A stretch of 45,947 nucleotides of DNA from Bacteroidota bacterium. Lineage in GTDB: Bacteria; Bacteroidota; Bacteroidia; Chitinophagales; UBA2359. The notes under the pieces were generated by a model. The model was not told the DNA's origin. It did no database searches and was given only the letters and a program-made list of their open reading frames with translations. The position numbers were made by a program, and so were the translations under genes. The stretch lies in NCBI GenBank assembly GCA_020631245.1, contig JAHDHP010000003.1, positions 1 through 45,947 on the forward strand, in the 5' to 3' direction. This document shows positions 2,863 to 44,555 of the stretch, in pieces. Positions within the stretch are counted from its first letter, which is position 1. Every line of letters begins with the position of its first letter.

Positions 2863-3026
2863 AAAATCCACTTATTCACCTAATTATACCCTTAAATGGG
2901 TCCAAAAATGTGGATAAGTGGATAACTTTGTGGATTACTCCCCTGTTTTTTGGGTTTTTAAAGTAAAATGATTATAAAAATACCACTTAGTGAGTAAAGG
3001 AGGCTAAAAATGTGGATAAGTGGATA

Positions 3027-5093
3027 TTATTGTGGATTATAGACCTTAATAGCTGTTTTTAATACCTTTTCTTTGTCTAGAGTCATCGTTTTCGTTTGAT
3101 GAGCATTATACATAGGAAGTTGATCGGTATACTTTTCCACATTTCGATGGGTTCCAAAGGGTAATAAGGTTTCTATTTTCTCTACTCCACCGCTATTGAA
3201 ACTTACAAAATGAATATAAGTATCTCCAAAAATGATTCTATACTTTCCATCCTTATAAGGAGCCGCATAATTTGCCATTAATACATCCGAAAATCCACTA
3301 ACCGGATAATCTTTTCCATGACGAACAAAACGTTGTAGTTTTTTGAGAGGTACTTCTAGTTTTTGGTGGTGTTTGTATAAATATTCTTTAGCTTTTCGAA
3401 TAGACCGTACTAATAATTTTTCATCTACATCTACTCCTAGTACAAATACCTCATCTCCATATTTTTTCTCTCTAAAGATATTATCGATGGTGAGTGCTAA
3501 AATGGTAGCGGAAGTACTTTCGAGGTGAATATCCCCTTTCCATTGTTGTAATAATTCAATAGCATCACTTATAGCAGGATATTTTGAAGCATTGATTTGG
3601 CGCATCACTTTCATCGTTTCTAGGAAATTGCTACTAGCGGGAAACTGTGCATCAAATTTCATAGCTTTAAAATCGTCATAATTGAAATGTTCCTTACCAG
3701 AAATTAGTTCTTGGAAGCGTTCGGCTCGATTATTATCACCAGGTCGTACATCTACGTAAGAAGGTAAACGCTTAGGATTATCATTTTCTTCCGCACAAGT
3801 GGCATTGAACGGAGTATTATTAGTATTGAAAACATATCCACAACTGGGATTTAATACTTGTGGTAAACTATCGAGTGGATAAATTTGAGTCCATAATTTT
3901 TCGGAAGTAGCACCAGATTGTACTTCTTTCCAATTGACTGTGGGGTCTTTTTGGGGTATAAAACCATTAGTGAGGTAGTATAAATTGTCATCTTTATCAG
4001 CATATACCAAATTGAACATGGCAATACGTTGTTTATCAAGAGCAGCTTTAAATTCTTTGAAGTTGGTAGCTTTGTTCATTTCATAAAATTGCTGTCCAGC
4101 ACCAATACGTTCATAGGCATGACTACGAATACCATAGTATTTTCCATTTTTTGATTTAATAGTAGGGCCGAATTCACTCCAATAAGTGGTTTGAGGTACT
4201 GGTAAGGTCAAAAATTTACCTAATTTTACCTTCAACCATATCTTACGTTTTTCTAGTTTCTTCCATTCACCATCCAATTCATATACATTTTTCTTTTTGG
4301 GGTGCATTTTGAGTTCAAAAATATCTACTCCATCAAAGTGGTTATACGTTTTTCCCCAAGCTAGATGTTCGTTATTCCCCATAAAAATGGAGGTGCCACC
4401 TTGAAAAATTGCCCCTGTGATATTGAGTCCTTCTTCACTACAAAGATGTGCTTCATAAAAAGAAAAGACTCCTTCAATTAAAAAGTGTGGATTGGTACAT
4501 AAATAAGTATTACCGTCAGTTGTTTTTGTACTTCCAAGTGCAAAGGCATTCGAACCTAATCCAAAGCTTTTTTTATTAAATTCACCATCAACTGCCTCTC
4601 CTACTGCTCCAGCTACGCCACTCAATGCCGAGAAAGCAATGGTGTAAGTGGTAACTACATCTTTTGGATGAATGGGAAATGCTTTTTTTACAAATACTTC
4701 TTTTGGATGTGCTGCTGCATAAGCATTGATACCTTCACAAAAACCTTTTAGATAGGTTTTGTAAGCATCACTTAACTCATCAGTATCATATAATTTATCT
4801 ACTAGTTCACGAGCACCAATAGCATGAGCAAAAAAATCACCAGCTGCTCCTTCTTTGCCGCTGTGTTTGGCCAACATTCCTTTGGACATTAGTAGTAGTT
4901 CTTGCATTCGATCGAATGCATCTTCCGCATTGGCCCAAGCTAAGCCATAAGCTACACCTGCATCAGTGGGCGCGAAAATATGTGGAACCCCATACTCATC
5001 GCGAGCGATGGTGACTGTACTGGGATCAACAATGTTTTGGGCTTGGGTTTGAAGGGTGAAAAGCAGTAAAAACGTGAATAAGAAATGTTTCAT
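3027..5093 (-). CDS. Penicillin acylase family amidohydrolase (Ntn hydrolase), secreted
   Basis: This 688-residue protein starts with a signal peptide (MKHFLFTFLLLFTLQTQAQ), then the N-terminal acylase region with RDEYGVPHIFAPTDAGVAYG (about 31-50). The GSNAFALG motif at 180-187 follows; Ser181 is the expected N-terminal nucleophile after autocatalytic removal of the spacer. The downstream NPH (about 199-201) and FQGGTSIFMGNN segments fit the beta chain. Relatives hydrolyse amide bonds of penicillins, acyl-homoserine lactones or other N-acyl compounds in the periplasm; the substrate here is unknown. The length fits the family and all segments are present. The 3' end overlaps the second DnaA-box cluster. 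Repeat copy 1 lies upstream. Confidence 0.88.
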   Translation of the reverse strand: MKHFLFTFLLLFTLQTQAQNIVDPSTVTIARDEYGVPHIFAPTDAGVAYGLAWANAEDAFDRMQELLLMSKGMLAKHSGKEGAAGDFFAHAIGARELVDKLYDTDELSDAYKTYLKGFCEGINAYAAAHPKEVFVKKAFPIHPKDVVTTYTIAFSALSGVAGAVGEAVDGEFNKKSFGLGSNAFALGSTKTTDGNTYLCTNPHFLIEGVFSFYEAHLCSEEGLNITGAIFQGGTSIFMGNNEHLAWGKTYNHFDGVDIFELKMHPKKKNVYELDGEWKKLEKRKIWLKVKLGKFLTLPVPQTTYWSEFGPTIKSKNGKYYGIRSHAYERIGAGQQFYEMNKATNFKEFKAALDKQRIAMFNLVYADKDDNLYYLTNGFIPQKDPTVNWKEVQSGATSEKLWTQIYPLDSLPQVLNPSCGYVFNTNNTPFNATCAEENDNPKRLPSYVDVRPGDNNRAERFQELISGKEHFNYDDFKAMKFDAQFPASSNFLETMKVMRQINASKYPAISDAIELLQQWKGDIHLESTSATILALTIDNIFREKKYGDEVFVLGVDVDEKLLVRSIRKAKEYLYKHHQKLEVPLKKLQRFVRHGKDYPVSGFSDVLMANYAAPYKDGKYRIIFGDTYIHFVSFNSGGVEKIETLLPFGTHRNVEKYTDQLPMYNAHQTKTMTLDKEKVLKTAIKVYNPQ

Positions 5094-5140: not shown

Positions 5141-5352
5141 GCGTGAGGGATAGTAGTGGTAGATTGGTGAAGTAGAAAGGTGGTGAAGCAACGCCTAGTA
5201 GGGCTGACAGCGGAAGACACTGCTAGGTGTATTTGCTGAACACCTTTTCTACGAGCCAACTACAAGCGAATAGCCCGACGCCATTTTTATGAATTTGTTT
5301 GTTCATGCGAGAACGCATGAACAAACAAATTCATAAAAATGGGGGCACGCCC
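5141..5352 (-). repeat. Hairpin-bearing intergenic repeat, copy 1
   Basis: Read on the minus strand, this copy runs from GGGCGTGCCC through a perfect 29-bp hairpin (arms 5281-5309 and 5314-5342, loop of four bases), then GGGCTATTCGCTTGTAGTT, the core hairpin around TGTCTTCCGCTGTCAGCC, and the end block TACTATCCCTCACGC. The outer core stem pairs GTAGAAA with TTTCTAC. It fills most of the gap between the acylase start and the merC-like gene end. The hairpin arm sequence is found in no other copy, while the core is shared by all seven. Confidence 0.85.
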
Positions 5353-8843: not shown

Positions 8844-9848
8844 CTACTCAAAAATTTCGGGACATTTACTGTCAGCATTTACTTTTTTGCGTTTTTTAGC
8901 CCAATAAGTTTGTCCAAAATCGAAAGTCATAGATACCTCGTGTGCATTGGCATTTACGCCCAAACTACCCAGTCGATAATCATAACTATATCCAAATCGG
9001 AAAACACCCGCTTTTACACCCGCCATAAAAATAAGCGCGTCCATATTATTAAATGTATGTCGTGCCCACACACCACCAAACAAAGCTCCTTTTCCTAAAT
9101 AAGCACCTGCATTGATTTGATTGACAGGCCCTTGATTCACAAACAATACATTTGGGCTAATATAAAATCGTTTGAATCCACGTCGTGGTTTGGACGTATA
9201 AAATACATAACCCAAATGAAAAGCACTTCGTACATGTAAACTATTTTCAGGATCTTCGGCTGTTGTAAAACTTACACTAGGTCGAGTAATATGCTTAAAG
9301 GATGCACCAATATACAATTGATCGGTATAAGCAACCATCCCTAGTCCCAAATCCAGTCGATGAATGTTATTCGTTTCTTGCAAACCCGCAAAACTACCTG
9401 GAATAATATCGCCAGTGGTGTCATCAATCATATCAGGAAGTACCACTTTATCCCAATTTAGATTTTTTTGGAGGTAACTCACCTGTGCGCCTGCTTTCAA
9501 CAATAATTTATCATTCAACTGCAATTGGTAGGCATACTGACCCGATACCAAATACGTATTATAGATACCCCCAGCACGATCTGCAAGAACAGAAAGCCCA
9601 AAACTACTGTTTAATTCTTCAAAATGCTGATCGTAGGCAATACCCATAGTCAACCAAGCATTATTAAAGGAAGGATACTGATGGCGATAGTTAACCGTCA
9701 CGCGTGGTTCGGATGTAAAACCAATCATTGACGGGTTTAAATGATAGGGAGCTGTATAAAATTGGCTAAATTCTGGATCTTGTGTCCAACCTTTTTTGAC
9801 CAAACAACAACTAACTATTAAAAATAGTATTAGACATTTCGTTTTCAT
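8844..9848 (-). CDS. Type IX secretion system membrane protein, PorP/SprF family
   Basis: This 334-residue protein has a signal peptide (cleavage near TQD, residue 23) and the family's opening QDPEFSQFYTAPYHLNPSMIG (about 23-43). It continues as alternating beta strands, ending in VSMTFDFGQTYW, as in outer-membrane barrels. PorP/SprF proteins sit in the outer membrane, bind PorE-type periplasmic partners and serve as anchors or exit points for specific T9SS substrates. It lies upstream of gldJ on the same strand and is probably transcribed with it. Bacteroidota genomes carry many PorP/SprF paralogues, so I give no single gene symbol; the gldJ neighbour suggests a core role. Confidence 0.88.
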   Translation of the reverse strand: MKTKCLILFLIVSCCLVKKGWTQDPEFSQFYTAPYHLNPSMIGFTSEPRVTVNYRHQYPSFNNAWLTMGIAYDQHFEELNSSFGLSVLADRAGGIYNTYLVSGQYAYQLQLNDKLLLKAGAQVSYLQKNLNWDKVVLPDMIDDTTGDIIPGSFAGLQETNNIHRLDLGLGMVAYTDQLYIGASFKHITRPSVSFTTAEDPENSLHVRSAFHLGYVFYTSKPRRGFKRFYISPNVLFVNQGPVNQINAGAYLGKGALFGGVWARHTFNNMDALIFMAGVKAGVFRFGYSYDYRLGSLGVNANAHEVSMTFDFGQTYWAKKRKKVNADSKCPEIFE

Positions 9849-10031: not shown

Positions 10032-10228
10032 GGGCGTGTCTTTTTCTTTTCGTTCTTGTTCATGCATGAACAAGAACGAAAAGAAAAAGACCAGGCTATC
10101 CGCTTGTAGTTTTCTCGTAGAAAAGGTGTTCGGCAAATACACCTAGCAGTGTCTTCCGCTGTCAGCCCTGCTAGGTGTTGCCTCTCTACCCTTCTACTTC
10201 GCCAAGCTACCGCTACTATCCTTCACGC
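10032..10228 (+). repeat. Hairpin-bearing intergenic repeat, copy 2
   Basis: It begins GGGCGTGTC and carries a perfect 27-bp palindrome without a loop (10038-10064 with 10065-10091). The base pairs at its foot are GTCT/AGAC instead of the GCCC/GGG pairing in most other copies, a compensatory change. Then come GGCTATCCGCTTGTAGTT, the core stem CCTAGCAG (10142-10149) with CTGCTAGG (10168-10175), the outer stem GTAGAA/TTCTAC, and the end block CTACTATCCTTCACGC. It lies between the divergent porP/sprF and porU genes. It is followed by a degenerate GAATGA-rich tract (about 10234-10272) and by TGTGTTAATCCGTGTAATCG (10297-10316). Confidence 0.87.
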
Positions 10229-10391
10229 AAAAACAATGACTGAATGTGTGAATGAGCGAATGACTGAATAAGTACTACGTTATTTTTTATAGAATCTGTG
10301 TTAATCCGTGTAATCGGTGGTTAACTAATTTGTCATCAAAAAGATAGCAAGTCTACTTCATATATATTATAATATCCTGTTTTGAAATATC

Positions 10392-13300
10392 ATGCAAATA
10401 AAATCACCCACTATGCATAAGCGAATAACCAAGAGTTTTATCTGTTTATTAATCTGCTTATTTCACTTGAGTAGTGTATGGGCACAAAGTCAAAAAAATA
10501 TCCAATTAAATTGGACAGATGATACGCGCCAAGTATGGATTGGTAATAATCAGTTTGCAGAAAGTCCCACTTTTAAGGAGTCGAAGTTTATCCCTTCAGA
10601 GCACCCATTTCCTATTTATACCCAACAAATCCCCTTGAATAAAGGTGGTGACTTAGCCGTAAAGATCGAAAATGCACAATTTGAAGTACTAGAGCTAAGT
10701 GATGTGCTTCAACAAAAAGCAGAGGGTTTTTTGACTAATGAAGTGATATTACAAAAGGAGTTAATTAACATCCAAAAGCGACCTTTTGCCCAAATCAGTA
10801 TTGTACCTCTTCGTTATAATACACAAGGACAGCTAGAGCGATTGGTATCATTTGATATGGATATACAAGTCAAACCTTTTAAGAATAATCGAGCGTTGGC
10901 AAAGTCAGGTTCTAATGAGTATGTCAATAACTCTATCCTCAATCAAGGTGCTTTTTATAAATTTCGAACCAGTGAGGAAGGTATTCATCGAATAGATGCT
11001 TCTTTTTTGGAGGCTTTGGGAATTAATGAAACGGTTTCGATTAACAATATCCGCATTTATGGAAATGGTGGAGGTACCTTAGATGAAAAGGCAGGTCATA
11101 ATTACGTGGATGATGTCTTAGAAAATGCCATAGAAGTGGTTGATCAAAATAATAATGGCAATTTTGATGGGAATGATTACCTCTTATTTTATGCACAAGC
11201 TCCTCACCAATGGAAATGGAACGAGCAAAATAAACGCTATGAATTTAAACGACACTTTTATAGTGATTATACCCACTACTTTTTCAACTACGATATTGGG
11301 GCAGGTAAACGAATTGAAACCATCAATCCTAGTGGACAAGCCACTGATATAGTAGATAGCTTTGATGATTATGCGATTCATGAAACAGAAACATGGAACT
11401 TAGGCGAAAGTGGACGTCGCTGGTATGGAGAGGTGTTCGATATTGTATTGACACAAGATTTACCCACCTTCAATTTTCCAAACATTGTTCCGAATAGTGA
11501 TATTACGATGGAAGGACGTTTTGCTGCAAAAGCGATTTATAATAGAAGTCGTTTTCAAGTAACAGTGAATGGGGAGCGTTTTAATTCGAGCTTTATAAAT
11601 ACAGTAGGGGCAAGTTTTGAAGATCCTAAAGCCCGTTCCACCTTATTAGTAGAAACAGTACCTGCATCGAGTGATAGAGTGCCTGTAACAGTTAACTTTG
11701 AAAAGAGTGATGCGACTGCTGAAGGTTGGTTGGATTATATTGCGCTGAATGCTCGCCGCCAACTACAATTTACAGGTGGTCAGATGTCTTTTAGAGATGC
11801 TTTATCCGTAGGAGAGAATAAACAAAGTGAGTTTAGAGTAGGAAATGCGAGTAATGCAACTATTTGGGAAATAACAAATCCTACCGAAGTACGACAAATA
11901 CAAACGGAAACAAATGGCAATACTGATGTTTTTAGCCTTCCCACGTCTACTCTACGCCAATTCATAGCTTTTGATGGTAGCCAGTATTTTAAGCCAGAAG
12001 CTATTGGCGAAATCGCTAGTCAGAATCTACACGAACTGACCTTTCCTGATATGTTGATTATCACACCCAATCAATTTTTAGGAGCGTCGGAACGCTTAGC
12101 TGATTATCGGCGTCAAAATGATGGTTTAGAGGTATTAGTAGCAGACCTCGATCATATTTATAATGAGTTTTCTTCTGGTACACCTGACTTGACAGCTATT
12201 CGAAATTTTGTGAAAATGTTTTACGATCGTGCAGAGGAGGATATTAATAAAATGCCACGTTTCCTTTTACTCATGGGAGACGCTTCTTATGATTATAAAA
12301 ATTTGGGCAAACATACCGAAGATGCGAACATTATTCCTACCTATCAAAGTATGGAATCGGTATTGACAATTCAAACTTTCTGTACCGATGACTATTACGC
12401 TTTATTAGATGATGATGAAGGGGTGAATATGAATTTTTCAAACCTAGGATTGGATATTGCTATGGGAAGATTACCTGTTAGCACAGTCGAAGAAGCCGAA
12501 TTGTTGGTTGATAAAATTATTCGTTACAATTCGAAGGAAGCATTAGGAGCTTGGCGAAATGATATAGCCTTTGTAGCAGATGATGAAGATGGAAACTTAC
12601 ATTTTCGTCAAGCAGAGCGACATGCTAATCGAATAGATACGGAAAATGAAGCGTATAATTTATACAAAATTTATTGTGATGCGTATCCACAATTGGCAAC
12701 TCCTTCAGGAGGGCGTTATCCAGATGTAAATGAAGCAATACAAAATCGTATTTTCTCAGGTAGTTTAATAATGAATTATGTAGGACATGGCGGGCCAACA
12801 GGTTGGGCAGAAGAGACTATTTTGAGTCAGACGGAGATACAAAAATGGGAGAACAAAAACCAAATGCCTTTATTTATTACAGCAACCTGTAGTTTTAGTA
12901 AATATGATGACCCAGAAGAAACATCGGCAGGGGAGTTATTGATATTAAAACCTGATGGTGGGGCTGGTGCTATCGTAACCACTGTACGTTTGGTGTTGGC
13001 TGGTGATAACTATGATATGAATAAAGCCTTTTTAGATCGACTCTTTAAATATGCTAACCCAACTACGGGTCGAATGCCACGCTTGGGAGAAGCGATGCGA
13101 ATAGCAAAAAATGATGCAGCACATACGAGTATCAATAATCGTAAATTTACTTTATTAGGTGATCCCGCCATGCGTTTAGCTTATCCTGAACACCGAGTGG
13201 TAACTACAAGTATAAAGCGAGTCGATGCATCGAATGAGGAGGTAGATACCATACAGGCTCTAACCACAGTAGAGATTTCAGGAGAGATCGTTGATTTTAA

Positions 13301-14273
13301 AGGTTTACCGATGGAAGATTTCAATGGCTTAGTATATCCAGTGGTATTTGATAAAGAATTGGAATTGAAAACACTTGCGAATGATGAACGTAGTCGCGTA
13401 GAGGCGTTTGAGTTGAGAAATAGTGTGATTTTCAAGGGGAAAGCAAGTGTGAAAAATGGGAAGTTCAGTTTTACCTTCGTTGTACCCAAAGATATTTCCT
13501 ATCAGTATGGAACAGGGCGTGTAAGTTATTATGCCGAAAATGGAGTTACGGATGCACATGGTTTTACTGAAAATATCATTATTGGAGGTATTGAAGATGG
13601 TTTGAGTGGGGATGGAAAAGGCCCCAATATTCAAATTTATATGAATGATGATCGCTTTGTATTTGGAGGCGTTACCAATCCGAGTCCTGTATTATTGATT
13701 CGTTTGGAGGATGAAGATGGTATCAACACAGTCGGAAATGGTATTGGGCATGATTTGACTGCTAAAGTGGATGGTGATAATTTTAATATAATAGTACTGA
13801 ATGAGTATTATAAAAGTGAAGTCGATAATTATCGAAAAGGGGAGGTGCAGTATCCTTTATCAGATTTAGAACCAGGAGAACATAGTATAGAAGTAAAGGC
13901 TTGGGATATACATAATAAGTCGGGTACTGGATATACTGAATTTATTGTGGCTGAAACTGCGGAACTTGCTTTACGTAATGTACTAAACTACCCGAATCCT
14001 TTTTTTGATAAAACTGCTTTTTGGTTTGAGCATAATCGAGTAGGAGAGGAGCTAACCGTCACCGTACAAATTATGTCTTTATCTGGACGTGTTATTAAAA
14101 CCATTCGTGAAGAGTTTGTGGCGGAGGGTTTCCGAGTGGATCATTTGGAGTGGGATGGCTTGGATGAATTTGGGGAGCCGATTGGTCGTGGTACGTATAT
14201 TTATCGCGTGAGTGTGGTGGGTGCTGATAACACAAAGGCAAGTAAGATACAGAAGTTGGTGATATTAAAATGA
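10392..14273 (+). CDS. porU: Type IX secretion system sortase PorU
   Basis: This 1293-residue protein matches the usual PorU length. A signal peptide ends near WAQ (the ATG at 10413 is an equally good start). The gingipain-like C25 peptidase domain spans roughly 555-950. The catalytic pair is visible: His799 in NYVGHGG and Cys833 in ITATCSF, with LLLMGDASYDY upstream. The C-terminus (about 1190-1293) is a FlgD/CTD-like beta domain with NVLNYPNPF and GRGTYIYRV. PorU is a cell-surface transpeptidase that removes C-terminal sorting signals of T9SS cargo and attaches the cargo to a lipid-linked sugar. porV follows 363 bp downstream, the usual porU-porV order. Cargo candidates with sorting domains are encoded at 21568 and 44659. 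Confidence 0.95.
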   Translation: MQIKSPTMHKRITKSFICLLICLFHLSSVWAQSQKNIQLNWTDDTRQVWIGNNQFAESPTFKESKFIPSEHPFPIYTQQIPLNKGGDLAVKIENAQFEVLELSDVLQQKAEGFLTNEVILQKELINIQKRPFAQISIVPLRYNTQGQLERLVSFDMDIQVKPFKNNRALAKSGSNEYVNNSILNQGAFYKFRTSEEGIHRIDASFLEALGINETVSINNIRIYGNGGGTLDEKAGHNYVDDVLENAIEVVDQNNNGNFDGNDYLLFYAQAPHQWKWNEQNKRYEFKRHFYSDYTHYFFNYDIGAGKRIETINPSGQATDIVDSFDDYAIHETETWNLGESGRRWYGEVFDIVLTQDLPTFNFPNIVPNSDITMEGRFAAKAIYNRSRFQVTVNGERFNSSFINTVGASFEDPKARSTLLVETVPASSDRVPVTVNFEKSDATAEGWLDYIALNARRQLQFTGGQMSFRDALSVGENKQSEFRVGNASNATIWEITNPTEVRQIQTETNGNTDVFSLPTSTLRQFIAFDGSQYFKPEAIGEIASQNLHELTFPDMLIITPNQFLGASERLADYRRQNDGLEVLVADLDHIYNEFSSGTPDLTAIRNFVKMFYDRAEEDINKMPRFLLLMGDASYDYKNLGKHTEDANIIPTYQSMESVLTIQTFCTDDYYALLDDDEGVNMNFSNLGLDIAMGRLPVSTVEEAELLVDKIIRYNSKEALGAWRNDIAFVADDEDGNLHFRQAERHANRIDTENEAYNLYKIYCDAYPQLATPSGGRYPDVNEAIQNRIFSGSLIMNYVGHGGPTGWAEETILSQTEIQKWENKNQMPLFITATCSFSKYDDPEETSAGELLILKPDGGAGAIVTTVRLVLAGDNYDMNKAFLDRLFKYANPTTGRMPRLGEAMRIAKNDAAHTSINNRKFTLLGDPAMRLAYPEHRVVTTSIKRVDASNEEVDTIQALTTVEISGEIVDFKGLPMEDFNGLVYPVVFDKELELKTLANDERSRVEAFELRNSVIFKGKASVKNGKFSFTFVVPKDISYQYGTGRVSYYAENGVTDAHGFTENIIIGGIEDGLSGDGKGPNIQIYMNDDRFVFGGVTNPSPVLLIRLEDEDGINTVGNGIGHDLTAKVDGDNFNIIVLNEYYKSEVDNYRKGEVQYPLSDLEPGEHSIEVKAWDIHNKSGTGYTEFIVAETAELALRNVLNYPNPFFDKTAFWFEHNRVGEELTVTVQIMSLSGRVIKTIREEFVAEGFRVDHLEWDGLDEFGEPIGRGTYIYRVSVVGADNTKASKIQKLVILK

Positions 14274-20396: not shown

Positions 20397-20595
20397 GGGC
20401 GTGCCCAATATGCAAAAAGCGCAATAACCGAAAACGGTTATTGCGCTTTTTGCATATTGGTCGGGCTATTCGTTTGTAGTTGTCTTGTAGCAGCTAGTTC
20501 GGCTAATGTCCTAGCGGTGTCTTCCGCTGTCAGCCCCGCTAGGTCAAGCCTCTCAAGGCTGCTACTTCACCAAGCTACCACTGCTATCCCTCACG
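20397..20595 (+). repeat. Hairpin-bearing intergenic repeat, copy 3
   Basis: It begins GGGCGTGCCC and has a perfect 26-bp hairpin (20405-20430 with 20435-20460, loop AAAA). It continues GGGCTATTCGTTTGTAGTT. The outer core stem is GTAGCAGC/GCTGCTAC where other copies have GTAGAA/TTCTAC. The inner stem is CCTAGCGG/CCGCTAGG where others have CCTAGCAG/CTGCTAGG. Both are double compensatory changes. The end block is CTGCTATCCCTCACG. It lies in a convergent gap. Confidence 0.87.
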
Positions 20596-20603
20596 AAAAA
20601 CAA

Positions 20604-20676
20604 TGATTGGATGACGGGTTGACTGCATGATTGGGTGTGCGTTACACTATATCCAATCATGCAGTCATCCAATCAT
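20604..20676. repeat. Long hairpin downstream of repeat copy 3
   Basis: GACTGCATGATTGG (20621-20634) is the exact reverse complement of 20653-20666. Outside it, GATTGGATGAC (about 20605-20615) pairs with the stretch following 20664. The structure lies between convergent genes and may stop transcription from either side, although there is no T run. Confidence 0.55.
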
Positions 20677-20703
20677 CCGATCACCAATTATCATCGCACA
20701 TTC

Positions 20704-24697: not shown

Positions 24698-24909
24698 GCG
24701 TGAGGGATAGTAGCGGTAGCTTGGCGAAGTAGAAACTTAGAGAGGCTTGGACTAGCAGGGCTGACGAAGGAAGACACTGCTAGGACTTTAGCCGAACTTG
24801 TTTTCTAAGAGGCAACTACAAGCGGATAGCCCGACCCTATTTTTGCCAATCGAAACCTGTCAGCTTGGAAAAACCTAACAGCTTGATTGGCAAAAATAGG
24901 GGCACGCCC
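24698..24909 (-). repeat. Hairpin-bearing intergenic repeat, copy 4
   Basis: On the minus strand it begins GGGCGTGCCC and has a perfect 17-bp outer stem (24835-24851 with 24885-24901). The 33-base loop itself contains a diverged direct repeat (AACCTGTCAGCTTG and AACCTAACAGCTTG). Then follow GGGCTATCCGCTTGTAGTT, the outer core stem TAGAAAAC/GTTTCTA, the inner stem CTAGCAG/CTGCTAG, and TACTATCCCTCACGC. It lies between the cyclase-like gene and htpG, both on the minus strand. The remaining gap (24910-25046) shows nothing. Confidence 0.85.
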
Positions 24910-30799: not shown

Positions 30800-31004
30800 G
30801 CGCAAGGGATAGGAACGGTAGCTTGGCAAAGTAGAAACTTTGTGAAGCTTCGACTAGCAGGGCTGACAACGGAAGACACTGCTAGACGAGTAGCTGAACT
30901 AGTTTTCTACAAGGCAACTACAAGTGGATAGCCCGACCCTTTCTCCCCTTGTATAGTTTATGTGTCTTCGCATAAACTATACAAGGGGAGAAAGGGATGC
31001 GCCC
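30800..31004 (-). repeat. Hairpin-bearing intergenic repeat, copy 5
   Basis: On the minus strand it begins GGGCGCATCCC and has a perfect 26-bp hairpin (30937-30962 with 30971-30996, loop of eight). It continues GGGCTATCCACTTGTAGTT, the outer stem GTAGAAAAC/GTTTCTAC, the inner stem CTAGCAG/CTGCTAG and CCTATCCCTTGCGC. The first motif GGGCGCATCCC, also seen in copy 7, and the last motif TTGCGC differ together from the GGGCGTG / TCACGC pair of the other copies. It lies between divergent genes. A spurious ORF at 30707-30931 overlaps it. Confidence 0.86.
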
Positions 31005-36459: not shown

Positions 36460-36693
36460 GGGCGTGCCCTTTCATAGTGATCGAGTGGTTGGGGACATAC
36501 GTACAGACAAGGCATGGCCTTGTCTTCAATCACACAACCACTCAATCACTATTACAGGTCAGGCTATCCGCTTGTAGTTGTCTCACACCCACTTGTTCCG
36601 CATAGTCCTAGCAGTGTCTTCCGCTGTCAGCCCTGCTAGTCCTTGCTTCACAAAGTAGCTGTTTCGTCAAGCTACCGCTACTATCCTTCACGC
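36460..36693 (+). repeat. Hairpin-bearing intergenic repeat, copy 6 (with a nested palindrome)
   Basis: It starts GGGCGTGCCC. The hairpin stem is 18 bp with one mismatch (36474-36491 with 36535-36552), and its 43-base loop contains the 21-bp palindrome AGACAAGGC-ATG-GCCTTGTCT (36505-36525). Then follow GGCTATCCGCTTGTAGTT, the inner core stem CCTAGCAG/CTGCTAG and CTACTATCCTTCACGC. The outer core stem is not evident in this copy. A degenerate GAATGA-rich tract follows (about 36700-36735). The rest of the gap to 36912 holds short hairpins (TTCAGC..GCTGAA near 36776) but no gene. Confidence 0.83.
36505..36525. repeat. Perfect 21-bp palindrome nested in repeat copy 6
   Basis: AGACAAGGC pairs with GCCTTGTCT around ATG. 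It belongs to the same palindrome type as 1697-1712 and 5118-5135, here sitting inside the loop of the copy 6 hairpin. Confidence 0.65.
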
Positions 36694-36912
36694 AAAACAA
36701 TGACTGAATTAGTGAATGAGCGAATGCCTGAATGGGCGTTACGCATTATTTTCTAGTTGCCGTCAACGACAAGTTTCAGCGGTTAGCTGAAGAACAATAT
36801 ATTTAATTATAGATGTTTTTTTCTTAAACACTTAGCTTCTACAAATGTATATCGCGAAAACGATGAAATGTGTGACGTTCAATCGTTTCATCGTTTTTCG
36901 TTCCATCGTAAA

Positions 36913-36991: not shown

Positions 36992-39900
36992 CTATTTTTT
37001 CTTTTTCGCCTTAAAAAACTCTCTGGCTTGTTTCACCCACTCATCGCGTTTTACACGTCCAGGGAAAAACTCAATCGCCTCATTAACCTTCAACTCATCA
37101 TCGGCGGTAAATTTCGAAATCTGCTCGAACGTATAGATACCCAAAGCATTCAGTTTATCCTCGATATAAGGACCAATACCATTGATATCTTGTAGGTTAT
37201 CTTTATCTAGTTCAGAAGCAAAACCAATACGTCCAAAATCAATATCACCTGCTTTTTCCTGAATACGTTTAAGTGCTTCCGCTTGCTTCTGACTCTTTGC
37301 ACCTTTCTTAGCATTCGCCATAAAGCCTCTTGCTTGTTTCACCCACTGATCTCGCTTAATACGTCCAGAGAAGAATTCAATCGCATCATTCACTTTATCT
37401 TCATCCTCTGAATCGAAATTGGCGATTTGACGGAAGGTAAATATGTCAATAGTATTGAGTTTGCGCTCAATGAAAGCACCAATACCTTTAATTCTCTGTA
37501 AATCATCTTTTTCTCCTGCATTAGCAGTACCAATACGTCCAAAGTTAATAGATGATTTCTTCGATTTAATACGATTCAGTACCACATTATCTTCGCTGTC
37601 AATATCCTGACCCATTAATTTCTTTGCTTGACGTGCCCACTCATCGCGGCTAATACGTCCAGGGAAGAATTCAATCGCATCATTTACCATTTCCTCATCT
37701 TCCTCATTAAAGTTGGCAATTTGACGGAAGGTATAAATGTCAACTGCATTCAGTTTACGTTCAATGAATGGACCAATTCCCTTGATTTTTTGTAAATCAT
37801 CTTTCTCTCCTGCCTTTACCTTACCAATTCGATTAAAGTTGATATTCTTGGCTTTTTCTCTTACTCTTCTTAGAGCTTCAGCTTCCTTATCATTTACTTT
37901 AATACCTAATATTTCACGAGCTTGTCTCACCCATTCGTCGCGTTTTACACGCCCAGGGAAGAACTCAATGGCATCATTTACTTTATCCTCCATATCACCT
38001 TCTAAGTTGGCAATTTGGCGGAATTGGTAAATACCTACTGCATTCAGTTTTTCTTCAATGAATGGACCGATACCCTTAATGCGTTTTAGATCATCTTTTT
38101 CTTCTGCTTTGGCTACACCAATCTTCGCAAAATCAAGGCTCTTAGCTTTTTCACGCACTCTTCTCAACGCATCCTCTTTTTCCGCTAATTTTGATTTTGC
38201 TTTTTCTTCTGCTGCTTTCAAAGCAGAAATGCGATCTCCCATTTTGTCTTTTGCACTTTCGAGATTTTCCAACTCACCTTTTAAGTTTCCTAATTTACCT
38301 TTTGCAGCTTCTAACTCTTTTAACAAAGCGTTATACTTGGCTAGTAAATCATTGTACTCTGCTTTTGCAGCTCTTTTAGCAGCAGTATTATTGTCACGTT
38401 CACCAGATAAACTAGCAATTAGATTGGCATTGGCATCTTGTAATTCTTTTACTCGACGACCATGTGCATCAACTGTTTTAGCTAAGCCATCATATTGTCC
38501 TTTCAAATCTCCATACTCTGCTTTTGCAGCTCTCAATGCATTAGCACTATTATCTCTTTCTTTGGAAAGACTAGCAATGAGGTTGGCATTAGCATCTTGT
38601 AGTTCTTTCACTCGACGTCCATGCGCATCAACTGTTTTAGCTAAACCATTATACTGACCTTTCAAATCACCATATTCAGCTTTTGCAGCTCTTAAAGCAT
38701 TAGCACTATTATCTCTTTCTTTAGAGAGACTAGCAATGAGGTTTGCATTCGCATCTTGTAATTCAGCTACTTTGCGACCTTGTGCCTCAGAGGATTTTAC
38801 CAATCCATTATATTGAGAGTTTAAGCCATCGAAATCACCTCTCAACCCTAATAAGCTTGCATTAGTTGCTTCTTTCTCTGCGTTTAATGCATCGAATTTA
38901 GCGAGTAAGTCAGCATATGCTTTATCAGCTTCTGCTTTTTCTTCTTCGTTTATTTCTTTTTGTAAGGTAAGTGCATCACTCAGTTCCCCTTTCTTCACTT
39001 CAAGTGCTTTGAGTTGCGCTTCCATTTCAGAACGAGCAGCTAGTAAGTCTTCATATTGTTTACGTAAGCTTGCTAAGTTACCTTCTAAGTTTGCTTTCTC
39101 TTCTGCAGCAATTTCTTTTTGTACTTCAAGCTCTTCTTCTAGGCGAATACGTCCTGATTCTAGCCCTGCAATGCGGGCACTATTTTCATCACGAGTAATA
39201 CTTAGATCTGCATTTTTGCTCTTCAAGTCAGCAATCAAGGCTTCAAGTTCGCTAACTTTACGTTTGTTTTCTTCGGCTTTACTTCTTAAGTCAGCAATTA
39301 AGGCTTCAAGCTCACTAACTTTACGTTTATTTTCTTCGGCTGCAGCATTCAATTTGTCATAGCGTTCTTGTAAGCCAGCCAATAACGTTTCTAAACCAGC
39401 TTTTTCTTCCGCAGCAATTTCTTTTTGTAAGGTCAATTCATCTTTTAATTCACCATTTGCCGCTTCTAAAGCAACAATTCGTAAGCCTCCAGCTTCCTCT
39501 TTAGCTTGTAAATCACCAAATTGGAGATTCAAGCTATCAAGAGATTGTCCTAATTTGTTTTTCTCTTCTCCTAGAGTCGCTATTTTTTGATTAGCTGCTT
39601 CATTAGCAGCAGCTAAAGCATCATATTTCTTTTGAAGATCCCCTAAAGCTGCTTCTAAACGAGCTTTATCTTCTACTGCGATTTCTTTTTGTAAAGTCAA
39701 ATCATCAGATAATAGACCATTCATATCTTGTAGTTCTACCAAACGTAGACTGGTTCCCTCTCTAGCATCGAGGAGCGTATCATAGTTGACTTGTAAATCA
39801 ACTAATCTAGCACTACTTTCTTCACGAGCCGCAAGTAAAGCATCGTATTTGGCTTGTAAATCAGATAATAAACCATCTAAACGAGCCTTTTCTTCCGCAG

Positions 39901-41356
39901 CAATTTCTTTTTGTAAAGCTAAGTCATCTGATAAGTTACCATTGATATTTTGTAGTTCTACTAAGCGCAAACTAGTACCTTCTCTAGCATCAAGTAAAGA
40001 ATCATAATTAACTTGTAGATCAACTAATCGAGCACTACTTTCTTCACGAGCCGCAAGTAAAGCATCGTATTTGGCTTGTAAATCAGATAATAAACCATCT
40101 AAACGAGCCTTTTCTTCCGCAGCAATTTCTTTTTGTAAAGCTAAATCATCTGATAATCCCTCATTCAAATTCTGTAGTTCAACGATACGAGCACTACTTT
40201 CTTCACGTGCGGCTACTAATGCATCATATTGTTTTCTTAAGTCTGCTAACTCCGCATTCAAACGATCTCTTTCTGCACTTGCATCGGCTTTCAATGCTGC
40301 TAATGCTGCTTCTAGTTCGGCAATTTGTGCATCGCCAGCACTACTTTTAGATTGTAAGTCATCAAAGTTACCTTGTAATAAGGATAATTGGTTGGCAGAA
40401 TCTGTTTTGAAACTATCAAAGTTTAAGTTCAGTTGATTCTTTTCCTCTGTAAGATTATTAATCAATCCACTTCTATTTTCTAACTCTCCTTCGGCCTCTT
40501 CTAATTTTAATAAAAGTAAACGATATCGCTCATCAGCATCAGCTTTCGCTTGGTTGGCATTTGCATTTGCATCTTCTAAGTCTTTTCCTAATGTTCTAAT
40601 AGTAGCCTCAAGTCCATCAATTTTATCACCTTTTGCATTGGCATCCAATTGTAAGGTATCAAAGTTACCTTGTAAGGATAATAATTGATCTGCTTTTGCT
40701 TGTAAATCATTAGCTGATTGAGCTTGTAAATCGGCTAGTTCTTGTTGTAGCTTAGCTAATAAAGCTTCTAATTCAGCAATACGTGCATCCTTTTCAGCAG
40801 TAAGTTGTTTTTCTTTATCTAATTCAGCTTTAAGAGCCTCAATTTGTGCATTTAAGTCTGCTCTTAATTTATCGAGTTCTGCTTTTAAACCTGCATTATC
40901 TTTCTTCAGACGTTCTATCGTATTATCGCTTTCTTTTTTGGCAGCGACTAAACTTTCATAATCTGTTTTTAATTTTGCATAGTTTCCTTTCCAGTCATCT
41001 AATTCCGTTTGAGCAGAACGTTTATAGTTTTCAAAAGATATATTTAAGGCATCTCTGTCAGCGACTAATTGATTATGGTCAGCAGTCAGCCCATTATATT
41101 TAGAGTATATACCATCATATTCTAGTTGAAGTGCATCACGATCACCTTTAAGACTTAGGTGTTTGTTTTCTAGTGAGCTAAAATTATTGACAGATAAATC
41201 GTAGTCACCTTGTAATTTATTATAAGCATTTAGTTGATTATCATAATCGCCTTTTAGACGACGCCATTTTGAGTTCCAAATGATCCAGCCGATCCAAAGT
41301 CCGAGGAGTGCACCCAAGAGAGGCAACAACCAAGGAAGAATATAACACCACGACAT
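36992..41356 (-). CDS. Membrane-anchored giant coiled-coil protein with four C-terminal helix-hairpin-helix modules
   Basis: The product has 1454 residues. One N-terminal transmembrane segment (about 5-28, ILPWLLPLLGALLGLWIGWI) is followed by basic residues (SKWRRLK), so by the positive-inside rule the bulk is probably cytoplasmic. Residues about 35-1100 are almost unbroken coiled coil, including near-identical internal repeats of about 74 and 53 residues. The last 350 residues carry four copies of a module of about 85 residues, each with a KGIGPFIE..LNA.GIYTFRQIA core (helix-hairpin-helix, GIG) and FFPGR..RDEWV.QAR. Such motifs bind DNA without sequence preference in other proteins. It follows the OmpA-fold gene by 74 bp, evidently one operon. 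A structural or tethering role is inferred; the function is unknown. Confidence 0.82.
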   Translation of the reverse strand: MSWCYILPWLLPLLGALLGLWIGWIIWNSKWRRLKGDYDNQLNAYNKLQGDYDLSVNNFSSLENKHLSLKGDRDALQLEYDGIYSKYNGLTADHNQLVADRDALNISFENYKRSAQTELDDWKGNYAKLKTDYESLVAAKKESDNTIERLKKDNAGLKAELDKLRADLNAQIEALKAELDKEKQLTAEKDARIAELEALLAKLQQELADLQAQSANDLQAKADQLLSLQGNFDTLQLDANAKGDKIDGLEATIRTLGKDLEDANANANQAKADADERYRLLLLKLEEAEGELENRSGLINNLTEEKNQLNLNFDSFKTDSANQLSLLQGNFDDLQSKSSAGDAQIAELEAALAALKADASAERDRLNAELADLRKQYDALVAAREESSARIVELQNLNEGLSDDLALQKEIAAEEKARLDGLLSDLQAKYDALLAAREESSARLVDLQVNYDSLLDAREGTSLRLVELQNINGNLSDDLALQKEIAAEEKARLDGLLSDLQAKYDALLAAREESSARLVDLQVNYDTLLDAREGTSLRLVELQDMNGLLSDDLTLQKEIAVEDKARLEAALGDLQKKYDALAAANEAANQKIATLGEEKNKLGQSLDSLNLQFGDLQAKEEAGGLRIVALEAANGELKDELTLQKEIAAEEKAGLETLLAGLQERYDKLNAAAEENKRKVSELEALIADLRSKAEENKRKVSELEALIADLKSKNADLSITRDENSARIAGLESGRIRLEEELEVQKEIAAEEKANLEGNLASLRKQYEDLLAARSEMEAQLKALEVKKGELSDALTLQKEINEEEKAEADKAYADLLAKFDALNAEKEATNASLLGLRGDFDGLNSQYNGLVKSSEAQGRKVAELQDANANLIASLSKERDNSANALRAAKAEYGDLKGQYNGLAKTVDAHGRRVKELQDANANLIASLSKERDNSANALRAAKAEYGDLKGQYDGLAKTVDAHGRRVKELQDANANLIASLSGERDNNTAAKRAAKAEYNDLLAKYNALLKELEAAKGKLGNLKGELENLESAKDKMGDRISALKAAEEKAKSKLAEKEDALRRVREKAKSLDFAKIGVAKAEEKDDLKRIKGIGPFIEEKLNAVGIYQFRQIANLEGDMEDKVNDAIEFFPGRVKRDEWVRQAREILGIKVNDKEAEALRRVREKAKNINFNRIGKVKAGEKDDLQKIKGIGPFIERKLNAVDIYTFRQIANFNEEDEEMVNDAIEFFPGRISRDEWARQAKKLMGQDIDSEDNVVLNRIKSKKSSINFGRIGTANAGEKDDLQRIKGIGAFIERKLNTIDIFTFRQIANFDSEDEDKVNDAIEFFSGRIKRDQWVKQARGFMANAKKGAKSQKQAEALKRIQEKAGDIDFGRIGFASELDKDNLQDINGIGPYIEDKLNALGIYTFEQISKFTADDELKVNEAIEFFPGRVKRDEWVKQAREFFKAKKKK

Positions 41357-44352: not shown

Positions 44353-44555
44353 GGGCGCATCCCTTTACAACAAATGCCCGCTTTTACTAGAACGTAAAAG
44401 CGGGCATTTGTTGTAAAGGGTCAGGCTATCCGTTTGTAGTTGGCTCGTATCCACCTGTTCCACCAAGTACTGGCAGTGTCTTCCGCTGTCAGCCCTGCCA
44501 GTACAGGTGTCACTAGGCGGTTACTTCTCCAAGCTACCACTACTATCCTTTGCGC
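44353..44555 (+). repeat. Hairpin-bearing intergenic repeat, copy 7
   Basis: It starts GGGCGCATCCC and has a perfect 27-bp hairpin (44361-44387 with 44394-44420, loop of six). It continues GGCTATCCGTTTGTAGTT. The inner core stem TACTGGCAG/CTGCCAGTA differs from TAGCAG/CTGCTA in other copies by a paired A-T to G-C exchange. The end block is CTACTATCCTTTGCGC. As in copy 5, GGGCGCATCCC at the start goes with TTGCGC at the end. It lies between two plus-strand genes. Confidence 0.87.

Follow-up and report, generated by a model that had tools for sequence, protein, structure and literature searches.

Seven copies of a structured element lie in the window

The window, the whole 45,947-nt stretch of DNA that was analyzed, belongs to a 4.44-Mb draft genome (78% complete, 428 contigs) and carries seven copies of an intergenic element, present in both orientations (Table 1). 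Copy 2, the copy in which the original prediction placed its finding, lies between a PorP/SprF gene (8844-9848, minus strand) and a peptidase C25 (PorU-like) gene (10392-14273, plus strand), which is a type IX secretion context. The interval described in that prediction, 10092-10228, corresponded to the core alone; the full element runs from 10032 (GGGCGTG) to 10228 (CACGC). Its two ends pair in a short stem (P1) that closes the element, and P1 is followed by a variable hairpin (P2) that precedes the core. The parts on the strand that is likely the RNA are P1, an internal loop rich in purines (GGGAUAG-N-AGCGG / AGCGGAUAGCCC), a distal P3 arm of about 100 nt, and P2 adjoining P1. The folding energy of the core had a z of -4.1 on the plus strand and -3.9 on the minus strand.

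Several copies had additional sequences attached or inserted. Degenerate 7- to 8-nt units (TGAATGA, GACTGAAT) formed tails 3' of several copies (10230-10292, 36694-36756, and 20604-20683), and the tail after copy 3 (20604-20683) was an inverted repeat of its own. A second small palindrome, GTACAGACGTTGCNNGCAACGTCTCTAC, was inserted at one fixed place in P3 in several copies (L146 150-423, L149 1597-1839, and L163 3608-3849 are examples), and nine of its 10 counted occurrences were in cores. Elsewhere in the window, a gene at 36992-41356 (minus strand) encodes a 1,454-aa coiled-coil protein with internal repeats of 159, 222, and about 300 nt and helix-hairpin-helix matches at its end, and three direct repeats around AAAATGTGGATAAGTGGATAA (2035-2079, 2893-2937, and 2995-3039) lie near the end of the gene at 3027-5093.

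TABLE 1 Coordinates of the copy 2 element, its parts, and the other copies in the window (R1 is the covariance model described in the text)
Feature	Position	Strand	Basis or remark
Whole element, copy 2	10032-10228	+ (as read)	R1, full length 1-94, E 8.2e-8; the RNA strand is more likely the complement
P1, 5' arm GCGTG	10034-10038	+	P1 covariation; partner CACGC at 10224-10228
P1, 3' arm CACGC	10224-10228	+	Same P1 covariation; partner at 10034-10038
P2 variable hairpin	10038-10091	+	Inverted repeat, 100% complementary, 27-bp perfect arms in copy 2; sequence independent of core
Conserved core strand 1, GGCTATCCGC (complement GCGGATAGCC)	10094-10103	+	Invariant in the phylum alignment, whose elements were found by that very motif; covarying P1b pairs 15-142 and 16-141
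P3 arm	10117-10197	+	Most of the ten significant covarying pairs; consensus fold
P3 outer stem	10117-10122/10192-10197	+	Copy 2
P3 inner stem	10142-10149/10168-10175	+	Copy 2
P3 loop	10150-10167	+	Copy 2
Conserved core strand 2, CCGCTACTATCC (complement GGATAGTAGCGG)	10210-10221	+	Phylum alignment
Copy 1	5141-5352	-	R1 E 1.1e-7; site also occupied in sister species
Copy 3	20397-20596	+	R1 E 7.1e-5
Copy 4	24698-24909	-	R1 E 6.6e-10; different P3 subfamily at the same site in sister species
Copy 5	30800-31004	-	R1 E 4.1e-7; missing at the orthologous place in sister species
Copy 6	36460-36693	+	R1 E 1.7e-7
Copy 7	44353-44555	+	R1 E 5.5e-7; P1 is GCGCA/TGCGC

The stems of the repeat covary

The compensatory changes in the stems of the repeat are real. 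As originally quoted, the inner stem is CCTAGCAG/CTGCTAGG in copy 2 (10142-10175), CCTAGCGG/CCGCTAGG in copy 3 (20518), and TACTGGCAG/CTGCCAGTA in copy 7 (44477). Two of the quoted stems needed correction. The outer stem is indeed GTAGCAGC/GCTGCTAC in copy 3, but the 5' arm of copy 4 is TTAGAA rather than the GTAGAA ascribed to it, so that this pair is broken. Similarly, the foot of P2 is GTCT/AGAC in copy 2, but in copy 1 it reads CC../GG.CGTC and not GGGTC. The near invariance of the loop was evident, as the seven copies differed by 0 to 3 changes and 0.01 such matches were expected by chance.

To place these changes against a phylogenetic background, 105 copies found in roughly 0.8 Mb of the genome were aligned, a tree was built, and the inferred substitutions were redistributed over random columns along the tree in 40 simulations, using our own script that implements the idea behind R-scape. 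Eleven column pairs scored above every one of the 40 simulated alignments. Ten of these, all nested Watson-Crick pairs, were located in the core and P3, and the eleventh (78-80) joined two neighboring loop positions that mark subfamilies. Across the 30 core pairs examined, we counted 164 inferred replacements of one Watson-Crick pair by another. The short helix adjoining the core, P1b, also covaried: pair 15-142 changed from G-C to A-T, and pair 16-141 changed from G-C to A-T or T-A. The two arms of P1 changed together as well, with GCGCA facing TGCGC in copies 5, 7, and others and GTGTG facing CACAC elsewhere in the genome. Thus, the signal that a covariation test had been proposed to look for was present above the tree-aware null.

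Two other identities were considered for the repeat or its parts and rejected. An insertion sequence-derived MITE did not fit, since there were no fixed terminal inverted repeats; the ends covary (GCGTG, GCGTT, GCGAG, GCGCA, and GCGGT) and are thus variable. Rfam matches of the P2 hairpin to microRNA precursors were chance matches to a long perfect hairpin.

Compact relatives are found across Bacteroidota

The 15-mer GTCGGGCTATCCGCT was present across Bacteroidota, and most sites with this motif shared a compact layout of P1, P2, internal loop, P3 hairpin, second internal-loop strand, and P1, with a P2 as short as 3 bp. In 43 such elements, P1 was paired in 100% of cells, a figure that is partly due to selection because an exact P1 was required in choosing the elements, and four of the five pairs showed two-sided changes. 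When P1 was not required, 46 of 64 elements had an exact P1 with a GG prefix, compared to one in the control, and most of the remaining 18 paired at P1 without the GG prefix. The covariation score of the 43 elements was 0.370 versus 0.120 for shuffles (0 of 500 shuffles reached it), and 91.6% of cells paired versus at most 63% for slid partners. P1 and P3 both covaried phylum-wide in these elements. The proposal that a force acts on base pairing was therefore backed both by the 105 copies within the genome and by P1 and P3 across the phylum.

One way to obtain matching arms with no selection on structure is template switching during replication, which keeps inverted repeats perfect. This process would account for the long P2 palindromes, which are perfect over up to 34 uninterrupted bp, and it may contribute to P2. 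However, P1 is just 5 bp long and its arms are 70 to 250 nt apart, yet it covaries across the phylum, and the stems of the core, which are short and interrupted at conserved unpaired positions, covary at individual pairs. For the core, template switching is disfavored, and as an explanation of the element, we regard it as very improbable.

A covariance model (R1) was built from the 43 compact elements, none of which came from this genus. R1 recovered all seven window copies at full length (E 6.6e-10 to 7.1e-5) and had no other match in the window up to an E of 1. In the phylum, 29 of 198 sampled genomes had matches, with no more than 20 counted for any one genome. A Spirochaetales metagenome-assembled genome (L046) carried the motif in an element-like context; unless the bin is mixed, the family may thus extend outside Bacteroidota.

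The part conserved phylum-wide was the internal loop, GTCGGGCTATCCGCT / CCGCTNCTATCCCT, and the P3 form of about 100 nt was an expansion almost confined to this genus. The suggestion that the loop TGTCTTCC..GTCAGCC is a recognition site was weak because the arm that carries it was found almost solely in this genus and was missing from most relatives.

Several compact relatives matched the Rfam family Flavo-1 (RF01705) with 45.8 to 64.7 bits, compared to a gathering score of 42, and the match was always on the complementary strand. The Flavo-1 model covers 76 nt without P1 and P2, and it did not match the window copies even at an E of 10. The homology runs through intermediates, as the elements in R1 include Flavo-1 matches and R1 recovers the seven copies. 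In addition, the complementary strand of copy 2 carries GGAUAGUAGCGGUAGC and AGCGGAUAGCC, which match the internal-loop strands of Flavo-1. From these sequence relationships, we take the repeat to be a larger member of a Bacteroidota-wide structured element, the compact form of which is cataloged as Flavo-1.

The complement is the likelier folding strand

The conserved folded structure that had been proposed was upheld, and folding probably takes place on the complement of the strand as read. We inferred 33 changes from a Watson-Crick pair to A-C and 15 to G-T; A-C as read corresponds to G-U on the complement. Canonical pairs were more numerous on the complement in 47 copies and less numerous in nine. 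Purine-rich loops are usual in structured RNA, and the 28 conserved unpaired columns were 93% purine on the complement. Pointing the other way, one U-G pair of P3 was kept on the strand as read in 30 of the 43 compact elements. Based on the wobble direction, the canonical pairs, and the purine content of the conserved loops, the complement is the likelier folding strand, short of proof.

Stem-loops are exchanged between copies, and sites persist between species

Copies with cores that were 95 to 97.5% identical had P2 hairpins that resembled each other no more than those of random pairs did; the exceptions were one pair with identical hairpins and one with similar hairpins. The family of the hairpin foot was independent of all 45 variable core columns (the largest V was 0.24, and none was significant after correction); for comparison, V was 0.8 to 1.0 for paired columns and about 0.22 to 0.37 for unpaired core columns. 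P2 consisted of shared palindromes, inner and outer, most of whose occurrences were in P2 hairpins. The independence of the foot families and the unrelated P2 hairpins on nearly identical cores indicated that P2 reassorts against the core as a unit. Whole stem-loops, that is, P2 and the distal part of P3, were exchanged between copies with pairing kept. The original prediction had offered selection or a copying process as the cause of the pattern; both were required, as the stems covary under constraint and the stem-loops are exchanged as units between copies.

We also compared orthologous sites from about 28% of the genome with those of a sister species, a genome of the same genus (G001) with genes that are 72 to 84% identical. 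Nine sites with alignable flanks were occupied in both species, and the orientation was the same at all nine. At least four further elements of the sister genome had no counterpart here, and window copy 5 was absent there, where 47 nt took the place of 328 nt in the window. Copies from a shared site resembled each other no more than copies from different sites did, either in the core (0.76 versus 0.76, P = 0.62) or in the hairpin (0.19 versus 0.16, P = 0.29), and the P3 subfamily differed between the species at copies 1 and 4. Either the content of the shared sites was replaced in place, or the same spots were reoccupied in the same orientation; intergenic divergence was too high to choose between the two. 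Likewise, no target-site duplication or clean empty site was readable between the available species because their intergenic DNA was saturated.

Copies are numerous, mostly complete, and not tied to particular genes

Loops within two mismatches were found 427 times in the genome (206 forward and 221 reverse) and 0 times in a reversed control. When three variable loop positions were left free, 511 copies were found here, 373 in the sister genome, and 0 to 2 in 39 other relatives. Away from contig edges, 176 of about 187 copies were complete.

These data bear on the main rival explanation, in which each copy serves the host as a chromosomal binding site or as an RNA that acts at gene ends in processing, termination, or stability. 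In that case, the fold would be under selection in each copy, and gene conversion would keep the copies similar. The nine sites shared in the same orientation are in keeping with such a function, as are the small number of decayed copies and the fact that many compact copies begin 6 to 20 nt after a stop codon. However, orientation relative to neighboring genes was not fixed. The flanks of the compact set had the same direction in 26 cases and the opposite direction in 24, and only a weak bias was seen here, where 28 of 81 placed copies lay between genes of their own direction, 13 between genes of the opposite direction, and 40 between convergent or divergent genes. Moreover, the neighbors belonged to 192 unrelated families, some sites were occupied in just one species, and most sampled genomes of the phylum lacked the element. 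We consider a host-functional site or RNA rather unlikely. A fixed role in a 5' or 3' untranslated region was rejected because of the variable orientation. Divergent gaps were underrepresented for the compact elements (12 of 78 versus 63 of 317). A search for a linked gene family among 106 neighbors of compact elements found none with more than four members by Pfam.

A RAYT or a reverse transcriptase is not supported as the mobilizing enzyme

The high copy number, extragenic location, and structure of the element would also suit a REP/REPIN-type repeat that is recognized as a single-stranded DNA hairpin and moved by a RAYT transposase. In keeping with this idea, atypical secondary structures that also have copies at other places in the genome are reported to flank the Bacteroidetes TnpA_REP subclass 2.6 (PMC6006769). 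The only Y1/RAYT-type transposase found in the genome (L206, contig C142, 155-838) is flanked by ACCTG[AT]CAGGT, and 10 of the 16 occurrences of the palindrome beside it are inside P2 hairpins. That palindrome, ACCTG[AT]CAGG, is nonetheless different from the element, and the element was near none of 30 Y1/RAYT loci (E < 0.01) in 13 genomes. Furthermore, two genomes with the element, G007 (98% complete, with at least 17 copies) and G087, had no detectable Y1 gene. Mobilization of the element by a RAYT was weakened by these results, and we view it as improbable.

The base preceding the element was usually T, and the base after it was A or G. The frequency of T was 0.69 to 0.84 at positions -1 to -3, and it was 0.9 at -1 in this genome. 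In about 130 copies of this genome, T was enriched at -1, -2, -5, -6, -9, and -12 and at about every third base further out, which is possibly a target preference. In one flavobacterial genome, two elements lay directly 3' of the T-tract of an intrinsic terminator; relatives of that genome (78 to 89% identity) had the terminator at the site without the element. The preceding T bases and the two terminator sites would fit a SINE-like retroelement, in which reverse transcription of the purine-rich RNA would start at a nicked, T-rich target. Against such an origin, seven of the 17 carrier genomes lacked an RVT_1 reverse transcriptase. In addition, the copies away from contig edges showed no LINE-like excess of truncation at one end: one-sided copies were split six versus five by end, and some of these were merely beyond the search pattern. 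A SINE-like origin thus appears highly unlikely.

A proposed structure-recognized element with modular exchange

The explanation that we favor, with a probability of about one-half, is that the repeat is a structure-recognized, trans-maintained, non-autonomous interspersed element with modular stem-loop exchange. A trans-acting factor would recognize the fold of a single-stranded nucleic acid; recognition by fold is suggested because the stems must match while their sequences are free. Under such recognition, both arms of each stem would have to match, and whole stem-loops would be the only parts that could be swapped, through recombination or gene conversion between copies. The hundreds of copies, the patchy presence, and the absence of a linked gene suggest that the element is non-autonomous and is served in trans. 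Neither a RAYT nor a reverse transcriptase was supported.

Several findings count against this explanation. No mobilizing enzyme was found in searches for a RAYT, a reverse transcriptase, and linked genes, and purely selfish elements should leave decayed copies, whereas nearly all copies here were complete. Sites persist between species with this degree of gene divergence, which suggests that the copies may be of importance for the host. The few decayed copies and the persistent sites therefore leave room for a host function.

A more far-reaching proposal, which we put forward tentatively, is that Flavo-1, rather than being an ordinary small RNA, is the compact form of a phylum-wide, structure-recognized interspersed element that is moved or rewritten by an undescribed enzyme. 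The more than 500 loci in this genus would then be slots that keep their site and orientation while their stem-loop modules are replaced from a shared pool.

These results give Flavo-1, a candidate RNA without a known role, a closing stem, a second hairpin, and a likely folded strand, and they newly describe it as a repeat dispersed in up to 500 copies. It is uncommon in evolution for intact stem-loops to be exchanged among hundreds of loci whose sites persist even as what they contain is replaced. This pattern poses a direct question that is now testable, namely, what copies or converts a sequence that is recognized by its fold. It also means that covariation searches that take such repeats for conserved regulatory RNAs may be misled.

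Comparison with known systems

Flavo-1 was listed by Weinberg et al. (2010) in Bacteroidetes as "RNA? y, cis-reg? n, switch? n" (PMC2864571), and the few later mentions found in the literature added no function. A limited literature search returned it as a candidate small RNA, with no description as a dispersed repeat, and a search by sequence motif returned nothing relevant. The window element is found in the same phylum and shares with Flavo-1 the internal-loop strands GAUAG..AGCGG / AGCGGAUAGC and, on the complementary strand, a pattern of helices of 3, 2, 2, and 4 bp with short internal loops. The Rfam structure is <<<-<<---<<---<<<<, and the minimum-energy fold of the window core on the complementary strand is (((.((...((.((((, so that the last spacer is 3 nt in Rfam but 1 nt in the window core. 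The two also differ in that the window copies add P1 and P2, both of which are present in the compact relatives, and in that the 76-nt model has a short terminal arm in place of the long P3.

Like REP/REPIN sequences, including those of Bacteroidetes subclass 2.6, the element is high-copy, extragenic, folded, and often near gene ends. However, it is a multihelix structure of about 200 nt rather than a small REP hairpin of 20 to 65 nt, it is closed by a covarying stem without a fixed GTAG-type 5' tetranucleotide tag at the foot, and no RAYT gene is flanked by it.

A likeness in principle exists with the attC sites of integrons, in that a variable terminal stem-loop on a structure-recognized single strand would permit any sequence that keeps the pairing. 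Unlike attC sites, the element occurs in both orientations nearly equally, and its copies lie kilobases apart and not in arrays.
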